A DNA stretch of 64,000 nt, taken from contig CANDAG010000007.1 in assembly GCA_947382625.1 (NCBI GenBank), forward strand, positions 1-64,000. The letters run 5' to 3'. This DNA comes from an uncultured Lachnospiraceae bacterium. GTDB taxonomy: Bacteria; Bacillota; Clostridia; Lachnospirales; Lachnospiraceae. Positions 8,524 through 43,023 of this stretch are shown in pieces. How positions within the stretch are numbered: position 1 is the stretch's first letter; the number at the start of each line of letters is the position of its first letter. A program made the translations under genes and the position numbers. The notes beneath the pieces were generated by a model, which ran no database searches, was not told where the DNA came from, and worked only from the letters and a program-made list of their open reading frames with translations.

Positions 8524-10197
8524 ATGAAACATAATAGTTTGTTGAAAGTCATGAAGAAACCATTATCCGGAAACGCAGGACTTTTTGTGCTTGTGTCCAT
8601 CGCGTTGCTTTTGGAGACGGGAATCTCGTTACTTATGCCTCAGATCTTAAGTACGGTCATTGATAACCTGGAAACAAAAGCGGAAAAATGGTTGTTTACC
8701 TGTACGCTGTTTTTCTGCTTTGTGGTGGTTATGAAGGGTGTCATCGGGGTATTTAATACCTGGCTAAGGGAAAAGCTGGGCTGGCGTTTATGCGACCATC
8801 TGCGGGAGGACATGTTTGGAAGGATCTTTTCCTTTTCCATGAAGCAGCATAAAGCAGCCCGGAGCGGGATCTTTCTGGAACGGCTGGAAGGGGATGTCAA
8901 TATTCTGGTGGGCTTCTTTTCAAGCATGTTCATCGACATCGTGGAAAGTCTGTTGATGGTGATCGGGATCCTGGCGGTCTTTTATATCAGATCCATAGAG
9001 CTTGGCATTGCGTTCACGGTACTGTCCGTGGGCGTTCTTTTGTTGTTCGTTCTGACTCAGAACGCCATCGCCGCTCTGTGGAGAGAGGCCAGGGAAAAGG
9101 AAACGGAGGTGCTGGGGGAATTTTCGCAGGATATCGCGGCATGGCAGGACGTTGTGGGCGTGGGCAGGGAGCGCTATATCCTTAACAGGTGCGCAGAAAA
9201 ATTCGGGATTTTTGAGGAGAAACAGGTAAAAGCTTCCTTCCGGGGAAATATTCCGGCCACGATCTTTTATTCCACGCTGAATGTGGGTGAGGGACTGGTG
9301 CTGGCCGTGGGGATTTATCTGATGAGCCAGGGCAGCATGACGATCGGAGGGCTGTATCTGATCTTAAGCTATGTGGGATTGTTGAACATCCCCTTTGCCA
9401 GCCTGAAATACGAGTTTGCCGAGCTGCCCCAGGTGCTGGCGGCTGTGGGGCGTATCGACGATATCTATAAATGGCCCTGCGAGACCGGGAAGGAAGATGG
9501 CAGACTGTGGGACGGGGATGGAAGCGTTTCCTTTGAGCAGGTGTCCTTTGGCTACACCCCGGAGAACAGGGTACTTGATAAGGTCAGCTTTCAGGTAGAG
9601 CCCGGAGAGCATGTTTTGATCCAGGGAAGGACCGGTAGTGGCAAGAGCACTATTTTACAGCTGATCGCAGGGTTTTATATTCCGGAGGAGGGGAACGTGA
9701 AGGTGGGCGGCCATATGGTGGCAGAGTACCGGCCGGACAGCTATTACCGGGGGATCAGCTATATTTTGCAGTCCAATCCCATTTTGGAGGATACTATACG
9801 AAATAATGTTTCCAGGTATCAGGAGACATACACGGATCAGGAGATTCTTGAGGCCTTAAAGAAAGTACATCTGGATCGATGGGTGGAGGAAAGTGGCGAG
9901 GGTCTTTCGACTGTTATCAACAGCAGGGACATCACCCAGGATGTGGCGCAGCTCCTGGCATGGGCAGGCGTTCTATTGTCGCGGCCGAAGGTGCTTCTGG
10001 TGGACGAATTTGACGGGAGCATACAGGACGCCACCATTCGGATCATAGACGAGGTCATCTGTCAGGAACTTACGGAGACCACCATACTCATGGTTACCCA
10101 TAGGCGCAGGAGCGCCATTGAGTTCCAAAAGGAGATCAGGATCGAAACGGGAAGGATACTGGAAATTGTAACGCATGAAAGGGGAGGCACGGCATGA
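8524..10197 (+). CDS. Exporter-fold ABC half-transporter A (degenerate signature motif)
   Basis: This 557-residue protein joins a six-helix membrane domain (about residues 15-310) to an ATPase domain. The nucleotide-binding residues are complete: Walker A GRTGSGKST (368-376), Walker B VLLVDE with catalytic Glu495, and His526 in VTHRR. The LSGGQ signature, however, is absent: the matching region reads DITQDVAQ (from about 469). Its partner, overlapping by 4 nt, has the opposite pattern. In a heterodimer this leaves one complete ATP site. Such pairs export peptides, lipids or drugs, and a few related ones import siderophores. The substrate is unknown; cotranscription with the peptide importer is inferred from the 6-nt spacing. 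Confidence 0.88.
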   Translation: MKHNSLLKVMKKPLSGNAGLFVLVSIALLLETGISLLMPQILSTVIDNLETKAEKWLFTCTLFFCFVVVMKGVIGVFNTWLREKLGWRLCDHLREDMFGRIFSFSMKQHKAARSGIFLERLEGDVNILVGFFSSMFIDIVESLLMVIGILAVFYIRSIELGIAFTVLSVGVLLLFVLTQNAIAALWREAREKETEVLGEFSQDIAAWQDVVGVGRERYILNRCAEKFGIFEEKQVKASFRGNIPATIFYSTLNVGEGLVLAVGIYLMSQGSMTIGGLYLILSYVGLLNIPFASLKYEFAELPQVLAAVGRIDDIYKWPCETGKEDGRLWDGDGSVSFEQVSFGYTPENRVLDKVSFQVEPGEHVLIQGRTGSGKSTILQLIAGFYIPEEGNVKVGGHMVAEYRPDSYYRGISYILQSNPILEDTIRNNVSRYQETYTDQEILEALKKVHLDRWVEESGEGLSTVINSRDITQDVAQLLAWAGVLLSRPKVLLVDEFDGSIQDATIRIIDEVICQELTETTILMVTHRRRSAIEFQKEIRIETGRILEIVTHERGGTA

Positions 10198-11768
10198 GAA
10201 AGGAAAGAGCCAGCCTTTATCGCACTGCGATAGAAGGGATACGGCGTTTTTATATCGTAGTGATCGTGATAGAGGTCGTCACTTATACCCTCAGCTTTCT
10301 GATCAGTGGATTGGCGAAAAAAGATATTTTCAATGTCCTGGAAGGAAAAGAGACCACTTTCGGCATCAGTTCCCTCTGGGTCCTGATCCTGTTGAATACC
10401 ATGATCCCCCTGGTCATTAACTGCGTGAAGCAGGTGAACGCCGCTTTTGTGGCCAGGCTGACCGTCCGGCTGAAGAAAAATGTAAAGCAGAATCTGCTGG
10501 CCGGCGTTTTACAGAGGAAGATTGGGATGAAGGGATGGAAAAGCGATGGGGAGCTGATCAGCTTGTTCCGGAATGAGTGCGAGGACGTTTCCGTGTATTT
10601 TTTGGAATTTTATTATCATCTTCCTAAGATCGTGCTGAGCATCGCGATCCTTATCATGATGTTCTACATCAATCCCGTGTTCGCCGTTGTGAGCCTTCTT
10701 CCCACGGCGGGCATTGTGATCCTGCTCCGGTTCTTGAACCGCCATATCACTTATAACCGCGAGTCTGCCAGAAAGGAGACCGGAAAGCTGACGGAATATG
10801 TGGAAACGGTGCTGGGAAATATGGAATATTTCAAGATGGCCAACTGCCAGAACCGCATATACAGGGATTTTCATGAGCGGTGCCGGAGACGGTCAGCCTG
10901 CGAGGTCAGGGACAGGGTGATGGATCGTGCCATCGGCTCTCTGTCGGAAAATTCCGCCAACCTGACGCTGGGCGTGGTTCTGCTGATTGCGATCCCGCTG
11001 TTCCGGACCGGGCTGTTCACCGTGGGAGAGTTTGTGATGTTTGAGTACTACTATGCCTTTCTGGCTTCCCTGCCGGACGCGGTGGGAGCCCTTATCAAAC
11101 GGCGCAGGCAGACCAATGTATCGGTGGATCGGTTGCAAGCGGCATGGGAGCCGGGGGAATCAGATGGCGGCGGTACGGAAGGTCAGAAGAAAGACTTTGG
11201 AATCGGCAGCGCGGCATACCGGGGGGAAGAGTTGGAAATCTCTGTGGAAGGGATGGAACAGCCGTTCCACGTCCACGCCAGGAAAGGTCAGGTGATTCTG
11301 CTGTCGCCCCAGGAGGGCAGGGACCGGAGCGCATTGTTGCAGGAGCTGTACCGGATATGCAGCGGCAGTCTTTCGGTGCGGTGCGCGTATGTACCGGAGG
11401 AGCCGGTGCTGCTTGAGGAGTCCGTCCGGGAAAATATCTGTATGGGAGAGGCTTATGGGGAGAAAAAATTTATGCAGGTGCTGGAGCAGACTGACTTAAA
11501 GAAGGACGTGAAGGATTTCAAGGAAGGCGTCTTCAAGAACGTGGGGAGGAAGGGCACCACGGTATCGGGCGGACAGAGGAAGCGTATTGCCATCGCCCGG
11601 GCCCTGTATGCGGAGGCGGAGGTTCTCTTCATTGACGGGATCACAGACCAGGTGGACCGTGAGACGGAGGCGCACATCATGGAGCGGATGCTGGATGAGT
11701 TTGAGGGGATCCTGTTCATCACGTCAAATTCCCGGCAGCTGGCCGGACGGGTGCAGACAGTTGTATAA
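10194..11768 (+). CDS. Exporter-fold ABC half-transporter B (broken P-loop)
   Basis: This 524-residue protein has a membrane domain (about 1-310) followed by an ATPase domain in which the Walker A position reads SPQEGRDRSA (371-380), with no GxxGxGK[S/T]. The catalytic Glu after Walker B is Gly482 (VLFIDG), and the H-loop histidine is Ser511 (FITSNS). In contrast the signature VSGGQRKRIAIARAL (from 457) is perfect. The reading frame is intact and overlaps the partner by ATGA, so this is a maintained, asymmetric subunit rather than a pseudogene. It should contribute only the signature to the single working ATP site formed with half-transporter A. Confidence 0.87.
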   Translation: MRKERASLYRTAIEGIRRFYIVVIVIEVVTYTLSFLISGLAKKDIFNVLEGKETTFGISSLWVLILLNTMIPLVINCVKQVNAAFVARLTVRLKKNVKQNLLAGVLQRKIGMKGWKSDGELISLFRNECEDVSVYFLEFYYHLPKIVLSIAILIMMFYINPVFAVVSLLPTAGIVILLRFLNRHITYNRESARKETGKLTEYVETVLGNMEYFKMANCQNRIYRDFHERCRRRSACEVRDRVMDRAIGSLSENSANLTLGVVLLIAIPLFRTGLFTVGEFVMFEYYYAFLASLPDAVGALIKRRRQTNVSVDRLQAAWEPGESDGGGTEGQKKDFGIGSAAYRGEELEISVEGMEQPFHVHARKGQVILLSPQEGRDRSALLQELYRICSGSLSVRCAYVPEEPVLLEESVRENICMGEAYGEKKFMQVLEQTDLKKDVKDFKEGVFKNVGRKGTTVSGGQRKRIAIARALYAEAEVLFIDGITDQVDRETEAHIMERMLDEFEGILFITSNSRQLAGRVQTVV

Positions 11769-11807
11769 GGATGGTTTCCTGACATTTCAAATTTCTTTTA
11801 TTTTTCA

Positions 11808-11836
11808 TTGACACTCGAGAGCTTATAAGCTATCAT
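11808..11836 (+). promoter_or_regulatory. higBA promoter with embedded palindromic operator
   Basis: TTGACA (11808-11813), 17-nt spacer, TATCAT (11831-11836). A perfect 12-bp palindrome, AGCTTATAAGCT (11820-11831), fills the spacer and touches the -10, exactly where an autoregulating antitoxin would bind. Confidence 0.75.
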
Positions 11837-11861
11837 ATGGGCAGATAGAGGAGATAATAGA

Positions 11862-12230
11862 ATGTACGAGGTTCACTTTTATCAGGATGCTAACGGTAAT
11901 CAGCCGGTCAGAGATTACCTTGATAAGTTGGAAGAAAAATCCATAAGAAGCAAAGATGCCAGAATAAAATATAATAAAATTGATCAGTATATTGGAATAT
12001 TAATGGAACATGGGACAGCGGTGGGAGAGCCGTATGTAAAGCATTTGGATGGAGATATTTGGGAACTGCGTCCGTTAAGAGACAGGATTTTATTTTTTGC
12101 ATGGGATGGGAATGCATTTATTTTGTTAAGCCATTTTATGAAGAGTACACAAAAGACACCTAAAAGAGAGATTGAAAAGGCGAAAAGGTTAATGGAAGAT
12201 TTTAAGGAAAGGAGCAGGAAAGATGGATAA
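11862..12230 (+). CDS. higB: RelE/HigB-family toxin (Gp49-like)
   Basis: This 122-residue toxin belongs to the phage-Gp49/HigB branch of the RelE fold, ribosome-dependent mRNA endonucleases. Family features are the N-terminal strand MYEVHFYQDANGNQPVRDYL, the conserved VKHLDGDIWELRPLRDRILFF core with catalytic-type Arg residues, and LLSHFMKSTQKTPKREIEKA near the end. The toxin gene comes first and overlaps the antitoxin by 8 nt, the usual hig order. The local sequence is clearly more AT-rich than the ABC genes on either side, which suggests acquisition. Confidence 0.88.
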   Translation: MYEVHFYQDANGNQPVRDYLDKLEEKSIRSKDARIKYNKIDQYIGILMEHGTAVGEPYVKHLDGDIWELRPLRDRILFFAWDGNAFILLSHFMKSTQKTPKREIEKAKRLMEDFKERSRKDG

Positions 12231-12528
12231 TGTAAAGAAAATTTCCCCAGTGGGGGAAAATTGGAGTGAATACAGAAAGAAGCATTATACGGCGGAAGAA
12301 ATTGCCGAAAATGATTTAATGGTTAAGTTAGTTGGAGAAGTAATAAAGACGAGAAAGGAAAAACATATATCGCAAAGAGAATTGGGGAATATGACAGGGA
12401 TTAAGCAGTCTGTGATTGCAAGGATGGAAAGCGGAAAAACAGACCCTCAATTATCAACAATTTTAAAATTGTTGGTATCTATGGGAAAAACCCTTACAAT
12501 CGTTCCTTTGGAACTGTCTGAAAAATAG
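12223..12528 (+). CDS. higA: HTH antitoxin, HigA/XRE family
   Basis: This 101-residue antitoxin has an XRE-type helix-turn-helix at about residues 38-92 (RKEKHISQRELGNMTGIKQS through SGKTDPQLSTILKLLVSMGK). It is translated from within the end of the toxin gene (8-nt overlap). It should neutralise the toxin by direct binding and repress the operon at the palindrome between the -35 and -10 elements upstream. It is AT-rich like its partner. Confidence 0.88.
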   Translation: MDNVKKISPVGENWSEYRKKHYTAEEIAENDLMVKLVGEVIKTRKEKHISQRELGNMTGIKQSVIARMESGKTDPQLSTILKLLVSMGKTLTIVPLELSEK

Positions 12529-12689
12529 AACTGGAGAAGTAGGAAAAAAGAGCACATAATCTTTATAACTTCCTAAAAGTGTATTTTTGAGCATAACCGA
12601 TAAACAAAGGGGATGGTATGCTCATTCAATAAAAATCCAAAATGCACTTTTGTTGTACTTTGGCGAAGTGGAAATTTTTGATGGGAATA

Positions 12690-12718
12690 TTGTAATCGAA
12701 ATTGGCATATGCTATAAT
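12690..12718 (+). promoter_or_regulatory. Promoter of a short RNA (candidate RNA antitoxin)
   Basis: TTGTAA (12690-12695), 17-nt spacer, TATAAT (12713-12718), with an extended -10 (TGCTATAAT). Nothing long is encoded downstream; a strong terminator follows at 12760-12808, giving a transcript of about 84 nt. Confidence 0.7.
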
Positions 12719-12724
12719 GCCAAT

Positions 12725-12808
12725 AGGCAAAGCGAGGACATAAGTCCATGTGAACAAAGAACGAAACCTCGAACTATGTGTCAGCATAGTTCGAGGTTTC
12801 GTTTTTTC
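12725..12808 (+). ncRNA. Candidate antitoxin RNA of a par/Fst-like type I locus
   Basis: A predicted RNA of about 84 nt is bounded by a consensus promoter (12690-12718) and a strong terminator hairpin. It points at the small membrane-peptide gene on the other strand. Its segment 12736-12756 matches 12923-12941, the start region of that gene, as a direct repeat on the plus strand: ACATAA, CCATGT and AACA blocks in the same order, 17 identities, two mismatches and a 2-nt gap. Transcribed convergently, the RNA would therefore be complementary to the toxin initiation region. This mirrors RNA II of the plasmid pAD1 par locus. Existence and function are inferred. Confidence 0.6.
12760..12808. terminator. 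Strong terminator hairpin, possibly shared by two convergent RNAs
   Basis: A perfect 19-bp stem (12760-12778 with 12785-12803), loop TGTCAG, is followed on the plus strand by TTTTTCTT. On the minus strand the hairpin is followed by a less T-rich CTTTGTTC, so it may also stop the facing toxin transcript. Confidence 0.85.
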
Positions 12809-12835
12809 TTTTATAGTGGCAAAGCACCCACCAGG

Positions 12836-12934
12836 TTATTTGTTGTCCTTATTGTTACGGCTATCTAACCATTTGATGATGTAGTGGCAGGCTACACCAC
12901 CCATGACGGTAACGAAAAGCGAGAACATAACCAT
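12836..12934 (-). CDS. 32-residue single-helix membrane peptide, candidate type I toxin
   Basis: ATG at 12932-12934 to TAA at 12836-12838 encodes 32 residues: a hydrophobic helix (VMFSLFVTVMGGVACHYII) followed by a charged tail beginning KWLDSRN and ending in KDNK. This is the layout of Fst/Ldr/TxpA toxins, a membrane helix plus a WL..R-type polar tail. A very strong ribosome site, GGGAGGAGG (about 12942-12950), lies 6-7 nt before ATG. An extended -10 (TGCTATATC, 12984-12992) lies upstream. The start region has a direct-repeat copy inside the convergent small RNA. No family match could be searched, so toxicity is inferred. Confidence 0.65.
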   Translation of the reverse strand: MVMFSLFVTVMGGVACHYIIKWLDSRNNKDNK

Positions 12935-12983
12935 GTCAACACCTCCTCCCGTTGCCAGGTATCATCGGTAGGACAACGAAAAA

Positions 12984-12992
12984 GATATAGCA
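12984..12992 (-). promoter_or_regulatory. Candidate extended -10 promoter of the small membrane peptide
   Basis: On the minus strand TGCTATATC is an extended -10 similar to that of the facing RNA (TGCTATAAT). No good -35 is visible at 16-18 nt. A second option is TTGGGA, 17 nt, TATAGA a little upstream. Either start would give a short 5' leader before the 32-codon gene. Confidence 0.4.
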
Positions 12993-13028
12993 TATCTTTT
13001 GACATTGTTCTATATTTTAAGTGAATTT

Positions 13029-13379
13029 TTATCCCAAAATCTGCTTTAATGATTTTGAGAAGCGTTTTGTCAGCCTGCAGGTAATCCCACAATCAAGTTC
13101 TATGAGTCTTTGGGTATAATCAACTCTATTTACATGTGAAAGATTGATTATTTCAGAGGAGCTGCATCGAAAAAATGTAGTATTGTCGAGCTTATTGCAC
13201 CAGTCCCGAATACTTCCATATGTATTTATAACGCCATTGATCGTGATGAGGGATAAACGATGCGGTTCCGGGCAGGTTTGGATCGCTATAATTTTAGAGG
13301 AACTAAAAGAAATCGTTTGCTTGTTGATGGTAACGATAATTAAAGATGCTTCTTCCCCTATTAATTTCTGAATCAGGGA
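13029..13379 (-). pseudogene. LytTR-domain remnant of an AgrA-type response regulator
   Basis: Read on the minus strand from 13379 to a TAA at 13029-13031, an open frame without a proper start encodes a complete LytTR DNA-binding domain. It reads from EEASLIIVTINKQTISF through PEPHRLSLITINGVINTYGS and FFRCSSSEIINLSHV to CRLTKRFSKSLKQILG. The pattern PHRL, YGS, FFRC...S.IINL.HV, C..TKRFSK.LK matches the C-terminal half of AgrA/ComE-type regulators. The receiver domain is missing and the frame runs directly into the broken kinase gene upstream. It is therefore a deletion remnant. Confidence 0.7.
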
Positions 13380-14083
13380 TCAGGTGGGCGGCTTTCAGAC
13401 TATTGTCCAAAAAAAATCCCCAGTATTCTGACCAGATTATAGGATTTTATGTGAAATTCAATACTATTTGGTATATTTAAGACAAAATTAATGTGTAAGG
13501 AAAAAGCAACCTGTGCTTTGGTGAGAAGGATGCTTTTGATCTCTTTTTGTTTAATGGATTCCAAATCTTTAATATTATTCTGATGAAATTTGATTTTATC
13601 ATTCTGTGGCAGTATTTCATTTTTATAGTAATTCCGAAGCCCGTTTAAGTCATCCTCCTGTATAAAGCAATCAATGGAATAAAGGATATTCATATAGTCA
13701 TGTTTTGCTGTGCGGAGCTGGTCGGAGAACTCTTCCAAATTTTTAATGTTTTCTTTCAGAATTTGTTGTTCTATTAATTGAATATGTAGATTTTCACTTT
13801 TCTTATACTCTCTATATTGTATATAGAGCAGGAAGGTAGATGATAGGAAAAAAAGGAAAAATAAAATACCGTTGATCATAAGGATTTTATTTGTGTATCC
13901 CATTTGTTCTGCTATGGTGAAATTTAAAACCATCATACATGCACCAACAAAATGATTTATGGCCATAACCGAGAGCAAATGATGCATATGCTTTATTTTG
14001 TTATGAATGAATTTATTCAACGGATATCTGGCAAGCCGTAATATTACGTATATGAAAAAAAGAAAGCTCCAGCTGAAAATCAA
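13380..14083 (-). pseudogene. Broken AgrC-type sensor histidine kinase
   Basis: An open frame from TTG 14083 encodes about 227 residues: two or three membrane helices, a coiled-coil linker, the dimerisation/phosphoacceptor helix LRTAKHDYMNILYSID (His in KHDYMN), and the start of the GHKL ATPase domain (YNLVRILGIF). The frame then ends at FGQ. Deleting one base from the A8 run at 13409-13416 (T8 on the coding strand) restores LDNSLKAA, the expected N-box, so a homopolymer frameshift has occurred. The rest of the ATPase domain is deleted. The N terminus is also short and lacks a normal start. Only about 13 residues after the N-box remain recognisable. Confidence 0.7.
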
Positions 14084-14169
14084 TGTAGACCTGGAAAAAT
14101 CAGTTACACAAGCAGAATGGTAAGCTCTGCATCTGCTAATAAAAGAAGTGTTTATTCATAATATATTTA

Positions 14170-14200
14170 TTGTATTATAATAAAGATATTAATATAATAC
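14170..14200 (+). promoter_or_regulatory. Promoter of ABC pair 2 with an overlapping inverted repeat
   Basis: TTGTAT (14170-14175), 17-nt spacer, TATAAT (14193-14198). GTATTATA (14172-14179) and TATAATAC (14193-14200) form an 8-bp inverted repeat spanning the promoter, a likely repressor site. Confidence 0.6.
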
Positions 14201-14255
14201 AAGACAATGGATGGAATTGTAATTGTGATTAAAGTGACAATGACAGGAGGGCAAA

Positions 14256-15914
14256 ATTAAAAAGATACTACAGCTTATTAATTCCGACAGAGCCGCCAGG
14301 GGAAGGATTCTGTTCCTTCTCCTGTTGTATATCCTCCAGGCACTGTTCCAGGTGGCACAGCCGGAGGTACTCAACCGGGCCATGGACGCGGTAGGGGAGG
14401 GAAGCTGGGACAGGCTTAAGGCTGTGGTGGTCTTTGCAGTTTTTGTGACGGCGGGCACTCTTGTGGTGGATGCCCTGATCAAGCTACGGTTGGTCTCGTT
14501 TTCCAACATAACGCTCCAGAATGTGCAGACAGAGCTGATGGAGAAAGCTATGGGATTTCAGAGGAAGCGTTTCCAGAGAAACGAGATCCCGGATTACCTG
14601 ACAGGAATAACAGATCATGCGGAGTCTGCGGTGGAGAGCTCGGTAAGCTGTTTTTTTGATACCTGTTCCAGCATGGCAATCCTGCTGGTCTGCACGCTGT
14701 ACATGTGCTATCTGAGTATCCCCCTGACATTGGTAGTAGTAGCGTTCAATATTATCCTGCGGATGTTACTGACCATTGCGGAGAAGTATACCAGGCGGGC
14801 GGCAGATGCCTGCAACCGGGTGGTGAAGGAGAATAACGGCTTCCTGGTGGAGCTTCTTTCCCACATGCTCACAGTGCGGACCTACCGGGAGCAGGATTAT
14901 TTCAATGAAAAGCTCCTGGTGAGGGAAAAGGAAACCTGCAGGAGCCGCATCCGGAAGATGGTATGGGGGAGCGGGCAGAGCGAGTTTGTCTGGTGCTCCC
15001 TTAAGTTTGCGGAGTATGTGCTGGTCTACGGAATCGGAGGCGTCCTGTATTACCGGGGGAGGATTGATTTTGGCCTTTTTCTGGCCTATCCCATTGCTAT
15101 GGACTATTTTGTGAAGGGCATCAACATGTTTCTGCGCACATTGGTGGAGAAGAATACGGCGCTGAGCGCCATAGACGCCCTGGGATGGCTTTATGATGGA
15201 ACGGAGTCAGAAGGCGGGCGGGAGATGTCTGCAGATGAGGAAAAAGCCGTAAGGCCCGGGGAGATCTGTGTGGAGAATGTGTCCTTTTCCTATAAGAGGA
15301 AGGACGGAAGCGCCAGAGAGATCCTGAAGGATGTATCCTTTGTGGTGGAACCGGGGGACAAGGTGCTGTTGCAGGGGCCTAACGGGGAAGGGAAATCCAC
15401 GCTGCTCTACCTGCTCAGTGGCCAGTACCGGCCGGACGGCGGAAGGATCCTGTACGGCAGCACGCCTACAGCGGAGCTTTCCCTGAAGGCACTCTCTGAA
15501 AGGTACCGGCTTATCGCCCAGGAGAACGATCTGTTCCACTGCAGCGTGCCCCGGAATATTGAGCTGGGGGCAGAGCCGGACCGGGAGGCCTGCAGGGAAG
15601 TACTGAGAAAGCTTCGGATGGAGGACCGCCTGGAGAGGGAGGCGTTCCGGCTTTCCCAGGGAGAAAAGCAGAGGGTGAACATTGCCAGGGCCTTAAGGCG
15701 GGGAGGGGACGGGAGGATCTTCCTTCTGGGGGATGAGATTACGGCCAACATTGACCCTGAGAATGCAGCGAACATTTACCGGCTCCTGCAGGAGGAATTT
15801 GCCCAAAGCACCATTATCCTGGTGGCTCACGGGGACTGTGCTCTGGCGTGGAATAAACGGATCACGGTGGAAGGCGGGCAGGTTACCGTAGAAGAAGCCC
15901 GTGCTTTGGCATAA
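14256..15914 (+). CDS. Exporter-fold ABC half-transporter C (apparent ATT start)
   Basis: This 552-residue protein has a membrane domain (about 1-310) plus an ATPase domain with Walker A GPNGEGKST (374-382), a near-consensus signature LSQGEKQRVNIARAL, Walker B IFLLGDE and H-loop VAHGD; all catalytic residues are kept. The start is unusual. A perfect AGGAGG (14245-14250) is followed 5 nt later by ATT at 14256, giving (M)KKILQLINSDRAARGRILF, a normal transporter head. The first ATG/GTG/TTG in frame is TTG 14325, which would delete half of helix 1 and has no ribosome site. It pairs with the next gene. Confidence 0.82.
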   Translation: MKKILQLINSDRAARGRILFLLLLYILQALFQVAQPEVLNRAMDAVGEGSWDRLKAVVVFAVFVTAGTLVVDALIKLRLVSFSNITLQNVQTELMEKAMGFQRKRFQRNEIPDYLTGITDHAESAVESSVSCFFDTCSSMAILLVCTLYMCYLSIPLTLVVVAFNIILRMLLTIAEKYTRRAADACNRVVKENNGFLVELLSHMLTVRTYREQDYFNEKLLVREKETCRSRIRKMVWGSGQSEFVWCSLKFAEYVLVYGIGGVLYYRGRIDFGLFLAYPIAMDYFVKGINMFLRTLVEKNTALSAIDALGWLYDGTESEGGREMSADEEKAVRPGEICVENVSFSYKRKDGSAREILKDVSFVVEPGDKVLLQGPNGEGKSTLLYLLSGQYRPDGGRILYGSTPTAELSLKALSERYRLIAQENDLFHCSVPRNIELGAEPDREACREVLRKLRMEDRLEREAFRLSQGEKQRVNIARALRRGGDGRIFLLGDEITANIDPENAANIYRLLQEEFAQSTIILVAHGDCALAWNKRITVEGGQVTVEEARALA

Positions 15915-15927
15915 GGAGGGATGGAGG

Positions 15928-17700
15928 ATGAAGCAGACAGAAAAAGCAGATAAGACAAAACTGTCCCGGAAGGCAGGGAGGCGGACATCTCCGGCCCTCT
16001 TTTCGGATTTCCTGAAAAAGGAATGGCCCATGCTCATGCTTGCCAGTCTTCTGCTGGCAGGGTTTGCGGTGGTGCGGACCTACAGCGCTTCCTTTATCTC
16101 GGATATCGTGGAGCATCTGCAGGCGAAGGCCCCGCTTTCTGAGGCGGTGGGGCTGGCTTTTCTGGGGGCGGCAGCAGCCTGCTCCTCCTATGTGATGCGG
16201 TATGGGGGCTCCATGCTCTGCGTGGCGCTGACGGAAAAGCTGGCGCTGCAGACCCGGTGTCGTCTGGTGGAGCATCTGTGCCGGATCCCCTGGAGCGAAT
16301 ACGAGAGACAGAGGACAGGGCAGCTGCAGGCGGTGATCCGGGGGGACGTCCAGCAGGGGGCGGATATGGTCTATTCTATTTTTTCCAGGATAGAGCTGAA
16401 CGTGTTGCTGTTCGTGTCCACCTTTGTATACATGCTCATGATCAGCCCGGCCCCGGCTTTTATCATCGCAGGCTTTACCCTTTTTATGGCCTTTGTAAAC
16501 CAGCGGATCCTGACCCGGCAGAAGGTCTACAGGAAGCGTTCCCGGGATGCGGCGGGAGAGGTAGCAGAGACGGTGCTGACATCCTGCAGGGGGATGAGTA
16601 CGGTCAAGGCGTATCGGGCAGAAGGCTTTATCCTGAGCCTGCTGGGAGAAAAGAAAAGGGCGTACAACGACGCCGTCTACCGGGCGGAGCTGATCGATAC
16701 GGGACGGCTCTCGGCCTACAACCTGACCAGCAGCTTTGTGCTGTACGCCACCATCCTTCTGATGGGATATAAGGGGATCCGGGGAGAGGTGAACTGGGGG
16801 GATATCCTGGTATTTATCGTGCTGGTGCGCCAGGTGATCATGCCGGCGGAGGTGGTGTTCCGTTGGATGGGACAGGTGGCAGTGGGGATTGCGGCGTGGG
16901 AGAGGATCGGCGGGATCCTGGAGATCCCTGTGCCTGAGGAGGCCGGGGAACTGCCGGAGCCGGAAAATACAGTTGCTTTAGAAGCAGTCTCTTTTTCCTA
17001 TGGGCCGGAGGCACAGATCCTGACGAACCTTGATCTGGAACTGAAAAAGGGAGAGACCGGCGTCCTTATAGGGGAAAGCGGGAGCGGTAAGACCACGCTG
17101 TGTAAGATTCTGTGCGGCTTGTATGGAGATGAGAGCCAAAGGAAGGAGCAGGAACCGGAGGAAAACAGAGAGCCGTCCCGGGAACAAAAGCAGGGGCAGG
17201 AGCCTTATGAGCTGCACGGGAAGTGGATTCTGGACGGAAAGGAGTGGGAGGGCGGCGCAGTGCCCTGGTGTGTCTACAACCCTGCGGAGCCGGAGCTGTT
17301 CCATATGAGTATTTATGAGAATATCGTGTTCGGGCAGACACAGACCAGCCGAGAGGAATGCATGGCGCTGGCAGAGGAGCTTGGCGCGGCAGACTTCATC
17401 CGCAGGCTGCCGGATGGTATCGACACGGTGGTGGAGGCGGGAGGCCGGACCCTTTCCGGAGGACAGAGACAGCAGATCGCAAACCTGCGGGTGCTGCTCT
17501 CCGGCAGGAAGCTGCTGATTTTGGATGAGGCGTTTGCGTCTCTGGATGTGGAAAGGCGCCAGAGGCTTTGGGAGGTTCTGGAAAAGAGGCGGCAGAGGCA
17601 GCTGGTATTGCTGGTGACCCATGAGAAAGGGGCGGGAAGCCTGAACGAGGGGGCAGTCCGTTTTGATATGAGGGTGATAAATAAAAAGGAGTGCAATTAA
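15928..17700 (+). CDS. Exporter-fold ABC half-transporter D
   Basis: This 590-residue partner of the preceding gene has six membrane helices (about 30-320) and an ATPase domain with Walker A GESGSGKTT, signature LSGGQRQQIANLRVL, Walker B LLILDE and H-loop LVTHE, all consensus. Between Walker A and the Q-loop there is a Glu/Gln/Lys-rich insert of about 30 residues (DESQRKEQEPEENREPSREQ and onward), probably a surface loop. Start 15928 follows AAGGAGG at 15913-15919; the longer frame from 15901 lacks a ribosome site. It forms a second, apparently fully active heterodimeric exporter. Confidence 0.87.
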   Translation: MKQTEKADKTKLSRKAGRRTSPALFSDFLKKEWPMLMLASLLLAGFAVVRTYSASFISDIVEHLQAKAPLSEAVGLAFLGAAAACSSYVMRYGGSMLCVALTEKLALQTRCRLVEHLCRIPWSEYERQRTGQLQAVIRGDVQQGADMVYSIFSRIELNVLLFVSTFVYMLMISPAPAFIIAGFTLFMAFVNQRILTRQKVYRKRSRDAAGEVAETVLTSCRGMSTVKAYRAEGFILSLLGEKKRAYNDAVYRAELIDTGRLSAYNLTSSFVLYATILLMGYKGIRGEVNWGDILVFIVLVRQVIMPAEVVFRWMGQVAVGIAAWERIGGILEIPVPEEAGELPEPENTVALEAVSFSYGPEAQILTNLDLELKKGETGVLIGESGSGKTTLCKILCGLYGDESQRKEQEPEENREPSREQKQGQEPYELHGKWILDGKEWEGGAVPWCVYNPAEPELFHMSIYENIVFGQTQTSREECMALAEELGAADFIRRLPDGIDTVVEAGGRTLSGGQRQQIANLRVLLSGRKLLILDEAFASLDVERRQRLWEVLEKRRQRQLVLLVTHEKGAGSLNEGAVRFDMRVINKKECN

Positions 17701-35496: not shown

Positions 35497-37859
35497 TTTT
35501 GATCGCCTCCTTTTTCATAGTATATCATTGTTGCCCCTGAACACGCCAGCAAATCCTTCTCCGACCGGCGAAAAAGAGGGAGCAGGTCTGCCGGGGCAGT
35601 GATGGTCAAAGAATCAATGGGAGCCCGCATGGAAAGATTGTTTTCGGATTTATATCTCCGCATTCCGGCTACGGTATCCTCCAGTATCGTTCCGAATTCC
35701 AGCAGACGGGCGTCGGGCTCTTCCGGCTGCTTCCAGCACAGCAGATGGATAGAGGTTTCTTTTTCGTAAGACCTGAAAAATTCCTGGTAGATATATTCCG
35801 TAATATGAGGTACATAAACCGCGTACAGCTTCAGGATAGCAAGCAGGGTGTGATACAGTGCAAACTGAGCGCTTTTGCATGCCTCCTCTCCATGGAGATC
35901 GGGGCGGTAGAGCCGTTCCTTGGTGATTTCAATGTAGTTGTCACAAAAATCCTTCCAGAACAGCTCGTCGATCTCATGCCGTGCAGAGCCGGTCTCATAT
36001 TCCTCAAGGAGGGCAGAAGCCTTTTTTATGGTCTCGTCTGTGCGGGCAAGAATCCAGCGGTCTATGGGCAGAAGAGGCAAAGTGCATGACGGATTAATGT
36101 CCTGCAGGCGGGAAACGGCAAATTTGGAGGCATTCCACAGCTTGGTGAGAAAGCGCCTGGACAGGGAAAGATCCTCCGGTGCAAAAAAGGTATCGGTTCC
36201 CAGCTTTGCGTTTGCCGCCCAGTACCTGATAACATCGGCGGAGTGAGTCCTGATCAGCTCCACAGGGGAGAGATCGCTGTTGTTTTTGGATTTGCTGATT
36301 TTTTCTCCTTTTTTGGCCAGGACGAAGCCGCTGATCATAATGTCCTTCCAGGGAAGCTTTCCTGTATGGTAAAGGCTTCTTACAATAGTGTAAAAGGTCC
36401 ACGTGCGGATGATCTCATGAGCCTGGGCGCGCATGCTCATGGGAACAAGGGGCAGGCCGAAGCGCTCGTTGATCTGAGGAGACAGGGAGGAGGTGGCCCA
36501 GGTATCCAAAACCGCGCTTTCGGGTATGAAATCCCGGCATCCGCATTCGCACTGAGGGGTGCTGCAAGGCGTTTCCAGCGGGTTGACCGGGAGCTGATCC
36601 GGGGATGCAAAGACAGCCTTGCCGCAGTTTTTGCAGTACCATACCGGAAAAGGAATTCCGAAGTACCGCTGGCGGGAAATACACCAGTCCCATTTCAGGT
36701 TGGATACCCAGGAAATATAGCGGCTTTTCATGTGGGCGGGATGCCAGTTGATCTCATCGGCCGCCTTTAAAAACCGTTCCTTTTCAGATAAAACATCGAT
36801 ATACCACTGACGGGAGGGAATGATCTCAATTTCCTTGCCGCAGCGTTCATGAACGGCTACCGTATGAGTGATGTCCTCCGATTTCAGAAGAAGCCCTTTT
36901 TCGGATAGGAGACGAAGGATTTCTGCTCTGGCGGCGGCAATTTTCATGCCACCGATAAAGGGAACCTGACCGTCAATGGTCCCGTCAGGCAGGATGACTC
37001 TGTGGTAGGGAAGCCGGTATTCCTCCGCCCACTGCACATCGGTGCTGTCGCCGAAGGTAGCGCACATAACGGCGCCTGTTCCCTTGTCTGTGCTGACCTT
37101 GCTGTCTGCCATGATGGGAATCTCGTGACCGTAAAGGGGTACCCTGGCGTTTTTTCCAATATATCGGGCGTATCTTTCATCCTCCGGATGGACAAAAAGG
37201 CAGACACAGCCATAAAGCAGCTCAGGGCGGGTAGTGGCAATCTCGATCACATCATTTTCAACCGGAAAGGGAAGATAATGGAAGGCAGACCCGATGCCCT
37301 TTGTGTCCAGCTCCGCCTGGGCAATGGAGGTTTGGCATTTGGTGCACCACAAAACCGGAGACTCTTTGGCATAGGCCTTCCCCTGCCTGACCAGCTCAAG
37401 AAACAGCTCCTGGGAGATTTTTCTGACTTCCGGGCTGATGGTGGTGTACTGCAAAGACCAGTCAACGGAAAAGCCCAGAGATTTCCACATTTCCCGGAAA
37501 TCCTTTTCATACCTTTGGGTAGTGGCAATGCATTTTTCGGTAAACGCACTGCGGGGCAGGTCCTTGGCAATAATGCCCTCGTCCCGCTCTACAAGCCGTT
37601 CTGTCGGAAGCCCGTTGTCATCAAATCCAAAGGGATAAAAAACGTTATATCCCTGCATACGGCGGAACCGTGCGATCATTTCCGCCTGGGTGTAAGAAAA
37701 GACATGGCCGATATGCAGATGGCCGCTGACCGTGGGAGGCGGCGTGTCGATGGAGTAAAGGGGCCCTTTTTTATCCCCATCAAAGCGGTAGATCTGCTCA
37801 TCCTCCCAGAATTGCTGCATTTGTTTTTCGACGGTTTCAAAGGAATAGTGTTTGTCCAT
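35493..37859 (-). CDS. valS: Valine--tRNA ligase
   Basis: This 788-residue class I synthetase charges tRNA-Val. It shows HLHIGH (about residues 45-50), the KMSKS equivalent GEKISKSKNN, the editing-domain TTRPELLYGCVCLFVHP and a zinc-like Cys cluster (CKNCGK, CSTPQCECGC). Most bacterial ValRS are near 880 residues; this one ends without the long C-terminal coiled-coil arm and looks like the shorter variant. Start 37859 follows CAGGAGGACATCATT; the in-frame extension to 37970 reads into the leader. A T-box leader whose antiterminator bulge fits an A discriminator base supports a valine enzyme. It overlaps the next gene by 4 nt. Confidence 0.9.
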   Translation of the reverse strand: MDKHYSFETVEKQMQQFWEDEQIYRFDGDKKGPLYSIDTPPPTVSGHLHIGHVFSYTQAEMIARFRRMQGYNVFYPFGFDDNGLPTERLVERDEGIIAKDLPRSAFTEKCIATTQRYEKDFREMWKSLGFSVDWSLQYTTISPEVRKISQELFLELVRQGKAYAKESPVLWCTKCQTSIAQAELDTKGIGSAFHYLPFPVENDVIEIATTRPELLYGCVCLFVHPEDERYARYIGKNARVPLYGHEIPIMADSKVSTDKGTGAVMCATFGDSTDVQWAEEYRLPYHRVILPDGTIDGQVPFIGGMKIAAARAEILRLLSEKGLLLKSEDITHTVAVHERCGKEIEIIPSRQWYIDVLSEKERFLKAADEINWHPAHMKSRYISWVSNLKWDWCISRQRYFGIPFPVWYCKNCGKAVFASPDQLPVNPLETPCSTPQCECGCRDFIPESAVLDTWATSSLSPQINERFGLPLVPMSMRAQAHEIIRTWTFYTIVRSLYHTGKLPWKDIMISGFVLAKKGEKISKSKNNSDLSPVELIRTHSADVIRYWAANAKLGTDTFFAPEDLSLSRRFLTKLWNASKFAVSRLQDINPSCTLPLLPIDRWILARTDETIKKASALLEEYETGSARHEIDELFWKDFCDNYIEITKERLYRPDLHGEEACKSAQFALYHTLLAILKLYAVYVPHITEYIYQEFFRSYEKETSIHLLCWKQPEEPDARLLEFGTILEDTVAGMRRYKSENNLSMRAPIDSLTITAPADLLPLFRRSEKDLLACSGATMIYYEKGGDQK

Positions 37860-40348: not shown

Positions 40349-41113
40349 ATGAATGAAAACAAAGTAAGCCTGTCGGCTAAAAATCTGTTGAAAAATTACG
40401 GGACAAAGAATTTCGAGACCAGGGTGCTTAAGGGGATCGATCTGACCGTTTATCAAAACGACTTTATTGCCATTATGGGGCCGTCGGGGTCGGGGAAGAC
40501 CACACTCTTAAATATCCTTTCCACCATTGACAAGCCTTCCCAGGGGGAGGTAATGCTGGCGGATAAGGAGATTGCCAGGCTGTCCAATAAGGAGCTTTCC
40601 AGGCTCCGCAGGGATAAGATCGGGTTCATCTTTCAGGATTATAATCTGCTTGATACCATGACCTTGCAGGACAATATCGCACTGCCCCTTTCCTTAAACG
40701 GGGTTTCCGGTAAGGAGTGTGTGAGGAAGGCAAAGGAGCTTGGTGATATGTTCGGCCTTTCGGAGCATCTGGGCAAATATCCATGGCAGCTTTCGGGTGG
40801 GCAAAAGCAGCGGGGCGCTGCCTGCCGGGCTCTTATTACAGATCCGGAGATCATCTTTGCGGATGAGCCCACCGGGGCTCTGGATTCCAAAGCCAGCCGG
40901 GAGCTGCTTAAATGCTTAAAAGCGGTCAATGAAAACGGACGTGCCGCCATTCTTATGGTGACCCATGACCCTTTCTGCGCTTCCTATGCAAAGGATGTGT
41001 ATATTTTAAGCGACGGCCTGATCAAATGCAGGATCAGCAGAGGCGGGGAGCGGAAGGAATTTTATGACAGGATCATAGAGGTGCAGAGCTCCATGGGAGG
41101 TGATCTTTCATGA
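40349..41113 (+). CDS. Antimicrobial-peptide resistance ABC ATPase, BceA-like
   Basis: This 254-residue ATPase of the MacB/LolD/BceA type has Walker A GPSGSGKTT (about 43-51), signature LSGGQKQRGAACRAL, Walker B IIFADEPTGALD and H-loop VTHD. With the FtsX-type permease that follows (4-nt overlap) it forms a Bce-type resistance transporter that frees membrane targets from peptide antibiotics. Start 40349 follows AAAGGAGG; the frame from 40322 includes that ribosome site and is rejected. Confidence 0.92.
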   Translation: MNENKVSLSAKNLLKNYGTKNFETRVLKGIDLTVYQNDFIAIMGPSGSGKTTLLNILSTIDKPSQGEVMLADKEIARLSNKELSRLRRDKIGFIFQDYNLLDTMTLQDNIALPLSLNGVSGKECVRKAKELGDMFGLSEHLGKYPWQLSGGQKQRGAACRALITDPEIIFADEPTGALDSKASRELLKCLKAVNENGRAAILMVTHDPFCASYAKDVYILSDGLIKCRISRGGERKEFYDRIIEVQSSMGGDLS

Positions 41114-43023
41114 GAATGATGAAGCTTGCCTTACTGAATTTCAGAAACGGCTTCAGAAATTATCTGTCCCTGGTGATTTCCCTGGCCTTTACCATGTCGG
41201 TTTTTTTGAATTTCCAGAATATCATTTATTCCGATGCGCTGGCTCTTTTGGGGGAGCGGAACAAGAATAATGTGGACACCATTGTGCAGGTGATCTCTGT
41301 GGTGCTTGTGTGCTTTATGTTCTTCTTTATCTGGTATTCCACCAATGTTTTTCTTACCAGACAGAAAAAGGAGATCGGTATTTATGTGTTTATGGGGCTT
41401 ACCAACCAGAAGATCGGAAAGCTCTATATGATTGAGATCACGTTGATCGGCTTATCTGCTCTGGTTTTGGGAATTGCTTTCGGCACAGCCTTCACCGGTC
41501 TGTTTCAGATGGTACTGCTGGCCCTTTCGGATCTGGTGGTGGAGATCAGCTTTCAATTTGTGCTGCAGCCGGTGCTGATCACAGCCGGGGTCTATCTTGT
41601 GATCTATCTGATCTTTGTACTGAAGGGGTATGCGGATATTGTAAGAAGCAGTGTGCTTGACATGTTTACAGGAGCAAGGCAAAATGAGTATATAAGACAA
41701 AGCTTTATCCTTTTGTGGATCCGGGCGCTTTTGGGAGTGGTTGTGCTGGGAACCGGATTCTATTTTGCCGTGAAGGAGGGCGGGATGGAGGTACTCGGGA
41801 ATGTATTTCTTGCGGTGGTCCTTGTCATTGCAGGAGTTTACCTTCTCTTTGGAGGACTGATCCCTCTTATTTTTCAGGGACTGGCGGGAAGAAAAAGCTT
41901 CCTTTACCAAAAGACCCGGTGTCTGTGGGTGAACAATGTGATCTTCCGGATGAAAAAGAATTACAGAACCTACGCCATGGTCTGCGTGCTGGTGCTCTGC
42001 TCCGTAACGGCCCTGGCAACCGGGTTTGCTATGAAGGCGCGGTATGAGAATATTGTCCATTTTGAAAATACCTACACCTTTCAGCTTTTAAGCGACCGGA
42101 AGGATCTGGATGATGAGGCCAGAGAGCTGATAGAGGAATGTACGCCCATCGCCTTCAGCTCTTACATTCCCATCACGACTCTGGAGGAGAGTCAGATAAA
42201 AACCACTACCAGATATACCGGATATGCAATTACCTCCTGGTCGGCGTTAAAGAATCTGGCGGAGGAAGCGGGGCTTTCCTTTGAGCTGGAGGAGCCGGAA
42301 GAGGACGAGTATATCAGAGCAACCAATATGATACTTTTTTCTCTTATCACGGATGTGACCTCCGAGACGGCAGTGATAGAGGGAAAGACCTTCCGGCAGA
42401 TACAAAGGACCCAGGAGCCTTATCTTGGTTATCTTCAGGAAAGGCATGTGAATTTATTCATCTTAAACGATGAGGAATATGAAAAGCTCCGGCCCGCCGG
42501 AAGAGAGCTGTATGTCTATAACTATAAGATTACGGATCCAAAGGCGTTTGCGGCTGCCAGAGACAGGCTCTCGGAGCTTGTAGAGCAGATAAGACAGAAG
42601 GATGGATATATCGGGCGTGTGGCCATTGACCCTGAGGGGGAGGATGACAGAAAATGGATCAAGGTACTTTACTCCCTTTGTGAATTTATGTTCATGGTTT
42701 TCATTTTTGCCAGCGGCAGTATTATGTCTATGAAGCTGTACAATGATTCCTTTGAGGAAAAGGAGCGGTATCTGGTGATGAAAAAGCTGGGATTTGAGAG
42801 CAGGCTTCTGGGAAGATCCATCGCCTGTGAGCTGGCGGCAGCCTATGGTATGCCATTTGTTGTGATGAGCATTGCCTCGTACTTTTCGGTGCATGCTCTG
42901 GAAAAAATGATGTTTGCAGATCTGCGGATGATTAATGTGGTAAGCGTGCTGGCGGTGGGAGTTGTCTTTTTTGTCTGCTACAGATTGTCTGTGAGAGTAT
43001 ATCGGAGGAATGTAGGGGTATAA
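41110..43023 (+). CDS. Bce-type ABC permease, FtsX family
   Basis: This 637-residue permease has the ten-helix BceB layout: one helix at the N terminus, groups of helices to about residue 290, a large extracellular domain of about 200 residues between helices 7 and 8 (about 320-510) for drug and kinase sensing, and three C-terminal helices (VSVLAVGVVFFVCYRL near the end). The FtsX-like pattern is clear in the first and last blocks. It is coupled to the ATPase gene by ATGA. Specificity (bacitracin, lantibiotic or other) cannot be predicted. Confidence 0.9.
   Translation: MRMMKLALLNFRNGFRNYLSLVISLAFTMSVFLNFQNIIYSDALALLGERNKNNVDTIVQVISVVLVCFMFFFIWYSTNVFLTRQKKEIGIYVFMGLTNQKIGKLYMIEITLIGLSALVLGIAFGTAFTGLFQMVLLALSDLVVEISFQFVLQPVLITAGVYLVIYLIFVLKGYADIVRSSVLDMFTGARQNEYIRQSFILLWIRALLGVVVLGTGFYFAVKEGGMEVLGNVFLAVVLVIAGVYLLFGGLIPLIFQGLAGRKSFLYQKTRCLWVNNVIFRMKKNYRTYAMVCVLVLCSVTALATGFAMKARYENIVHFENTYTFQLLSDRKDLDDEARELIEECTPIAFSSYIPITTLEESQIKTTTRYTGYAITSWSALKNLAEEAGLSFELEEPEEDEYIRATNMILFSLITDVTSETAVIEGKTFRQIQRTQEPYLGYLQERHVNLFILNDEEYEKLRPAGRELYVYNYKITDPKAFAAARDRLSELVEQIRQKDGYIGRVAIDPEGEDDRKWIKVLYSLCEFMFMVFIFASGSIMSMKLYNDSFEEKERYLVMKKLGFESRLLGRSIACELAAAYGMPFVVMSIASYFSVHALEKMMFADLRMINVVSVLAVGVVFFVCYRLSVRVYRRNVGV

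Follow-up and report, generated by a model that had tools for sequence, protein, structure and literature searches.

A predicted par/Fst-type type I toxin-antitoxin cassette with a co-varying antisense repeat in a Lachnospiraceae genome

Par-like loci are ubiquitous in Firmicutes, and their features are conserved (Weaver 2020, PMC7472228); as listed in the consulted part of that article, these are convergent promoters, a shared bidirectional terminator, direct repeats at the toxin start, a sequestered mRNA 5' end, a tryptophan at the membrane edge and a charged tail. The same part mentions, as an unpublished observation, a P/D/S/TXXXG helix motif in the majority of the toxins, and states that the YUNR U-turn is not present in all par homologs. 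In the Lpt locus of Lactobacillus rhamnosus plasmids (PMC5608710, part consulted), a 24-nt complementary repeat takes in the toxin start, and a 5' helix and a stem-loop are present as well; the locus described here resembles it in this RNA plan, while the host class is different. The par/Fst kind is already known, and clostridial members were noted before: Fst-like sequences of the gut species Clostridium bolteae and C. asparagiforme, found in an in silico search cited in the consulted part of PMC6563280; compared by description only, they possibly belong to the same branch as ours. Our literature search, to which subscription journals were mostly outside, found nothing joining Fst, type I toxin-antitoxin and Lachnospiraceae, and a broader search with Blautia and Roseburia found nothing on this branch among the titles and abstract openings listed.

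The locus lies in the window (the whole stretch of 64,000 nucleotides that was analysed) of an uncultured Lachnospiraceae bacterium, where a first-pass annotation had proposed a par/Fst-like module. The features are as follows.

12654-13025: discrete cassette, the span within which DNA matches to other loci fall (best 60 rows)
12690-12718, plus strand: antisense promoter TTGTAA-17-TATAAT with extended -10 TG, 10/12 consensus matches
12725-12812, plus strand: antisense (antitoxin) RNA, predicted, about 84-88 nt; start set 7 nt past the -10, end from the hairpin
12729-12756, plus strand: direct-repeat copy in the 5' part of the antisense RNA, from the alignment
12753-12810: shared bidirectional terminator hairpin, arms 12753-12778 / 12785-12810, 92% complementary
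12836-12934, minus strand: toxin ORF of 32 codons with ATG start, GGGAGGAGGTG upstream and C-terminus ...HYIIKWLDSRNNKDNK; putative membrane toxin
12842-12848, minus strand: GGACAAC, within the codons for the tail; forms the 3' strand of the predicted long-range helix, complementary to the mRNA 5' end
12916-12941, minus strand: direct-repeat copy spanning the toxin start, where the antisense RNA would pair, from the alignment
12940-12949, minus strand: Shine-Dalgarno (SD) sequence GGAGGAGGTG; a purine-rich SD is also found in homologs
12950-12956, minus strand: GGCAACG, immediately upstream of the SD; alternative pairing site, close by, for the 5' end of the mRNA
12971-12977, minus strand: GTTGTCC, predicted start of the mRNA; contributes the 5' strand to the long-range helix, putative 5'-UH equivalent
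12984-12989, minus strand: toxin -10 element TATATC (TATACT in the relatives L005 and L098)

The minus-strand reading frame, claimed earlier together with a very strong ribosome site, was found with its SD and ATG; its product is probably a single-helix membrane peptide of 32 residues, with predicted toxicity. Its start is one codon shorter than in L005 and L098. A tryptophan stands between the membrane helix and the charged C-terminus of the window peptide, and KWL is invariant across 56 aligned family sequences; conservation of the KWLD stretch is partly by construction, because the scans supplying most relatives required Y..KWLD. By eye, the helix motif is TVMGG (TXXXG) in the window and AXXXG or SXXXS in many relatives. 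The 16 core codons up to KWLD, located essentially past the repeat, had a pN/pS of 0.254, and the two shifted frames gave 0.646 and 0.725 (5022 non-independent pairs from 168 sequences); on this codon comparison, the peptide reading frame is under purifying selection.

Facing promoters were found in the window (the antisense promoter and the toxin -10); both recur in homologs, and their activity is predicted. The antisense promoter had been called in the first-pass annotation as a consensus promoter for the facing RNA, and its element TATGCTATAAT was found at 90/135 loci. Note that the match at 12690-12718 alone proves nothing, since promoter-like sites in the 1.6 kb scanned were no commoner than expected (5 versus 5.5). 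The toxin promoter was absent from the first-pass annotation, and a candidate -10 is now placed at 12984-12989. Position 6 of this element was T in 121 of the 123 loci (of 135) that were readable there, T not having been required, and the window copy departs at this position. With its atypical -10, the window copy may be weakly expressed; judged from the sequence, its toxin promoter looks weakened.

The predicted antisense RNA and its hairpin agree with the RNA of about 84 nt and the terminator proposed before. Terminator-like matches numbered 6 versus 1.2 expected, 4 of them being overlapping readings of one hairpin, and a hairpin was detected at 135 of the 142 hits remaining after the removal of duplicates and ends. 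On the toxin strand the loop reads CTGACA and contains a YUNR motif, which occurs in 23/135 terminator loops (a count without a chance control). The direct repeat had been placed at 12736-12756 / 12923-12941; it is real, and that placement was too short, as it extends to 12729-12756 / 12916-12941 with 24 of 26 aligned bases identical, 2 mismatches and one 2-nt gap. It forms one continuous block, and separate DRa and DRb were not resolved. Complementarity between the antisense RNA and the toxin start follows from the two RNAs reading the direct repeat in opposite directions, as had been claimed. The 5'-terminal 36 nt of the antisense RNA gave a predicted duplex energy of -36.9 kcal/mol with the start of the mRNA, beyond the best (-31.0 kcal/mol) of 500 single-letter shuffles of those 36 nt (mean -19.8, sd 3.0); a pairing prediction had been proposed as a check.

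For the co-variation test, 135 loci were kept of 159 peptide hits (155 loci searched), 24 hits having been dropped (7 without a hairpin, 4 near an end, and 13 duplicates or with N), and, in cognate and non-cognate combinations, the sequence at the toxin start was aligned with the stretch beyond the terminator. The median alignment scores were 44 for cognate and 24 for non-cognate combinations. The cognate repeat copy was in the top 5% for 125/135 loci and ranked first for 70, versus 3/135 and 0 for a control region (membrane and tail codons); when ranked by duplex energy, the cognate pair was in the top 5% for 119/133 loci. Conservation of the paired blocks in homologous loci, named in the first-pass annotation as a test, was thus found by both alignment and energy; the loci are related by descent, and these counts are not independent events. 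The repeat differed from shuffles at p<0.05 in 132/135 loci (failing: L020, L043 and L130). For the copies in the window's own genome, the cognate duplexes had -34.8, -39.0 and -43.5 kcal/mol and the non-cognate ones -14.0 to -23.4 kcal/mol, and therefore little cross-talk is predicted.

A long-range helix in the predicted toxin mRNA, absent from the first-pass annotation, pairs 12836-12849 with 12970-12983 in the window. Leaders GTTGTC, GTTACC or GTTGCT open the predicted mRNA in most loci, with a partner site where the reading frame ends: a GACAAC site accompanied the GTTGTC leader in 53/59 loci and GGTAAC the GTTACC leader in 23/28, with crossed-over partner sites in 0/59 and 0/28. At least 6 of 7 Watson-Crick pairs between the 5' end and the ORF end were found in 118/133 loci (letter-shuffled leaders: mean 19.2, maximum 35), and exact 6-mer matches in 97/133 loci versus 35.6 (maximum 49) with the leaders permuted among loci. 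The helix has three main compensated states, which the toxin tail residues follow: the tail is ...DN in 55/60 loci with the GTTGTC leader and SN, GN or CN in 20/21 with GTTGCT, and it has three residues in 21/28 with GTTACC. For 21 loci of this last group, the pairing site begins one base past the stop codon. Local pairing of the mRNA 5' end was complete (6/6 pairs) in 73/122 loci (shuffled mean 10.5, maximum 23) and is weakly supported in the GTTACC group (4/28 loci). Since the same 5' end has a distal and a local partner, a switch from local to distal pairing would be possible. In par the SD is sequestered by a stem-loop (5'-SL); in the predicted mRNA fold of the window copy, SD pairing probabilities were 0.42-0.94, and its sequestration would be only partial. 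By analogy, the distal helix is taken as the equivalent of the 5'-UH of par. In the literature searched, consulted in part, no earlier description was found of the three-state 5' helix with the tail, or of the solo antitoxins of this family (see below).

When compared with pAD1 par of Enterococcus faecalis (Fst / RNA I / RNA II), as described in the consulted part of PMC7472228, the window module has in common the convergent promoters, the shared terminator, the repeat at the start, the sequestered 5' end and the single-helix peptide with its charged tail. It differs in that the repeat is one continuous stretch of about 26-28 nt, the module is a chromosomal cassette with an Fst profile score below cut-off, the tryptophan stands where pAD1 Fst has valine, and, by eye, the helix motif is AXXXG, TXXXG or SXXXS in this branch and PXXXG in pAD1. 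The match to the pAD1 plan in the first-pass annotation is supported, with the single repeat block, the low profile score and the unusual toxin -10 of this copy as qualifications. With the Fst model NCBIfam NF033608, the window peptide scored 11.2 bits versus the cut-off of 26, which is a model threshold and not a biological feature; the cut-off was reached in 0/60 genomes searched (own included), with a best score of 24.1 bits in L161. In profile comparisons, links to known type I toxins were weak: Fst was matched by 3/56 members (best E 0.00054), Ldr by 1/56 (E 0.04), and the C. difficile type I modules (NCBIfam NF047374), which are convergent as here, showed weak similarity with 17/56 members (best E 0.00035). 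On these scores the branch, which is large, is unrecognised by the public Fst model.

Assignment to the C. difficile type I class was rejected: its toxins have 50-53 residues and a long complementary region (consulted part of PMC6563280), whereas the window peptide has 32 residues and complementarity at the terminator and repeat, the predicted toxin mRNA and antisense RNA overlapping in the terminator region only. Ldr/Rdl of E. coli was also set aside, its regulation being hok/sok-like (consulted part of PMC7472228) versus the convergent arrangement with a shared terminator in the window. A search of Rfam at a loose threshold gave 18 sub-threshold hits to unrelated families and none at the gathering score; many were microRNA models on the hairpin, and these hits were discarded. 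Pfam had no family for the window peptide and scattered weak hits for relatives, PHROGs had none for the window peptide and phrog_738 (function unknown) in 21/56 members, and the family profile had no sequence match among solved structures.

Two clear paralogs of the window peptide are encoded in the same genome (the fourth match there had E 1.05). Relatives were found in 14/98 related genomes, in 85/392 genomes of the order (46/174 genera) and in 15/398 genomes of a phylum-wide sample (own included in each). A scan of named genomes gave at least 391 relatives among at least 595 pattern matches; 80 were kept, of which 37 have record titles naming Lachnospiraceae, the rest being mostly gut clostridial genera or unclassified bacteria. 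On viral contigs, 132 stretches yielded 51 loci. A phage collection gave 6 matching records and a plasmid collection 209, with E allowed up to 1; 194 of the latter are Enterococcus, with E 0.4-0.5 among the matches listed. For five plasmid or phage relatives, two of them from Bacilli (E. mundtii and Carnobacterium), the repeat was present in all, with 0/500 shuffles reaching it, and the distal 5' helix had 7/7 pairs (G-U allowed). Copies are carried by an inovirus genome (L160, PQ006100), where an opposite-strand gene overlaps the copy, and by the small plasmids L156 (NZ_CP128649) and L157 (HG796411), for which the plasmid tables, themselves incomplete, list no gene there.

When the window region 9000-17000 was compared at the DNA level with the family loci, 58 matches to other loci were obtained (best 60 rows), all within 12654-13025. 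Elsewhere, modules a few hundred bases apart form tandem arrays of 4 (G638:C23 near 95580-96849), 5 (G777:C28 near 40474-42909) and 3 (G767:C4 near 36243-37059). As for the surroundings in the window, the type I module is adjoined by a plus-strand gene pair at 11862-12528 (Gp49-like, PF05973, and HTH), which is likely a type II toxin-antitoxin module; a minus-strand ORF from TTG at 13400-14083 has a partial AgrC-type sensor kinase match (70.3 bits versus a cut-off of 500) and is possibly a remnant; and plus-strand ABC transporter gene pairs (ABC_membrane and ABC_tran) at 8524-11768 and 14325-17700 flank both toxin-antitoxin modules.

A search for the facing promoter gave 94 distinct copies in the fetched loci (leaving out 6 places, 5 in G049 and 1 in G200): 66 with a toxin, 2 with a weak one, 24 without and 2 near an end. 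Among the 92 with enough sequence, 26 lack an intact toxin, 2 of them with remnants, and 18/92 (18 of the 26) are antitoxin units with promoter and hairpin and without an intact toxin gene; the hairpin criterion was loose, and in a few (e.g. L240) the hairpin may belong to the neighbouring gene. The window's own genome has such a solo unit (G000:C16:59148-59294; L222 / L238) with promoter, repeat-like stretch and hairpin, whose best toxin duplex had -28.0 kcal/mol; it sits behind a 298-aa ORF. From 211 toxin loci, 192 with start and SD were taken (10 of the other 19 have a repeat); 184/192 have a detectable repeat and 8/192 lack one, although one of these 8 (L191) shows a repeat by eye. The asymmetry of loss (18/92 versus 8/192; Fisher p = 8e-5) compares two differently gathered sets of related loci under the loose hairpin criterion. 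Toxin-less units are thus commoner than antitoxin-less toxins, as predicted for a harmful peptide. In L043 at 5099, a toxin with -10, leader and SD is followed by no detected terminator or antitoxin half. L279, L302 and possibly L314, in which the toxin, the terminator and one repeat are missing, look by eye like products of repeat recombination. As candidate targets of solo antitoxins, L278 paired with L038 (-38.3 kcal/mol) and L226 with L009 (-36.2 kcal/mol); shared ancestry explains this equally, and no target is claimed. We regard it as a doubtful idea, albeit one worth stating, that chromosomal solo antitoxin RNAs are kept by selection as anti-addiction RNAs against incoming phage or plasmid copies and that the charged tail is mainly an RNA element, with residues and length set by 5'-end pairing.

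Convergent promoters, shared terminator, start repeat and co-variation together support the par/Fst-like reading of the first-pass annotation, and the locus is very probably a par/Fst-type type I toxin-antitoxin module; we infer its transcription and toxicity. That a chance repeat and hairpin surround a spurious small ORF might be argued from the promoter-like and small-ORF hits, which are common in the region; the co-variation of both repeat copies, locus by locus, is in our comparison the decisive case against chance and, with the codon-level selection, contradicts this explanation, to which we give practically no weight. A module of the predicted type could nevertheless have a window copy that is a decaying remnant, silent through a broken toxin promoter, as its -10 and its start, one codon shorter than in the closest relatives (L005 and L098), would suggest. 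The ORF, SD, 5' helix, repeat, terminator and antitoxin promoter look intact, and the extended TG may compensate; decay of this copy is therefore conceivable, and we hold the contrary to be likelier.

Another explanation accepts the antisense regulation and denies the poison: the small membrane protein would be non-toxic, with a physiological role, and the RNA would tune its dosage. Purifying selection on the peptide would fit this, as would the statement, in the consulted part of PMC7472228, that the roles of chromosomal Fst homologs remain unclear. Against it stand the patchy presence (14/98 related genomes), the confinement of similarity to the cassette, the copies on viral contigs and plasmids, and the excess of toxin-less antitoxin units over antitoxin-less toxins, which make a harmless product improbable to our minds.

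For the toxin-antitoxin module, we propose that a minus-strand mRNA from about 12977 (GTTGTCC), with its strong SD, would encode the 32-residue membrane peptide, and that the plus-strand RNA of about 12725-12812 would end in the shared hairpin. Contact would probably start at the complementary hairpin loops and spread to the start region, by which translation would be blocked. For the mRNA 5' end there would be two pairing partners, the far end of the reading frame or, locally, GGCAACG; such pairing should protect the message or hold it inactive. Because the repeat is particular to each locus, an antitoxin should act chiefly on the toxin of the same locus; and since the cassette of ~370 bp is also found on plasmids and on phage or predicted viral contigs, it would most likely serve for addiction, or to maintain itself or the element that carries it.

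With relatives in 85 of the 392 sampled genomes of the order, the par/Fst plan appears to be common in Lachnospiraceae and their relatives, and with its many natural toxin-antitoxin pairs it supplies material at hand for the study of antisense specificity. That the tail codons co-vary with the mRNA 5' end offers a testable reason for the differing tail sequences, and the solo antitoxins would open anti-addiction by type I RNAs to testing.
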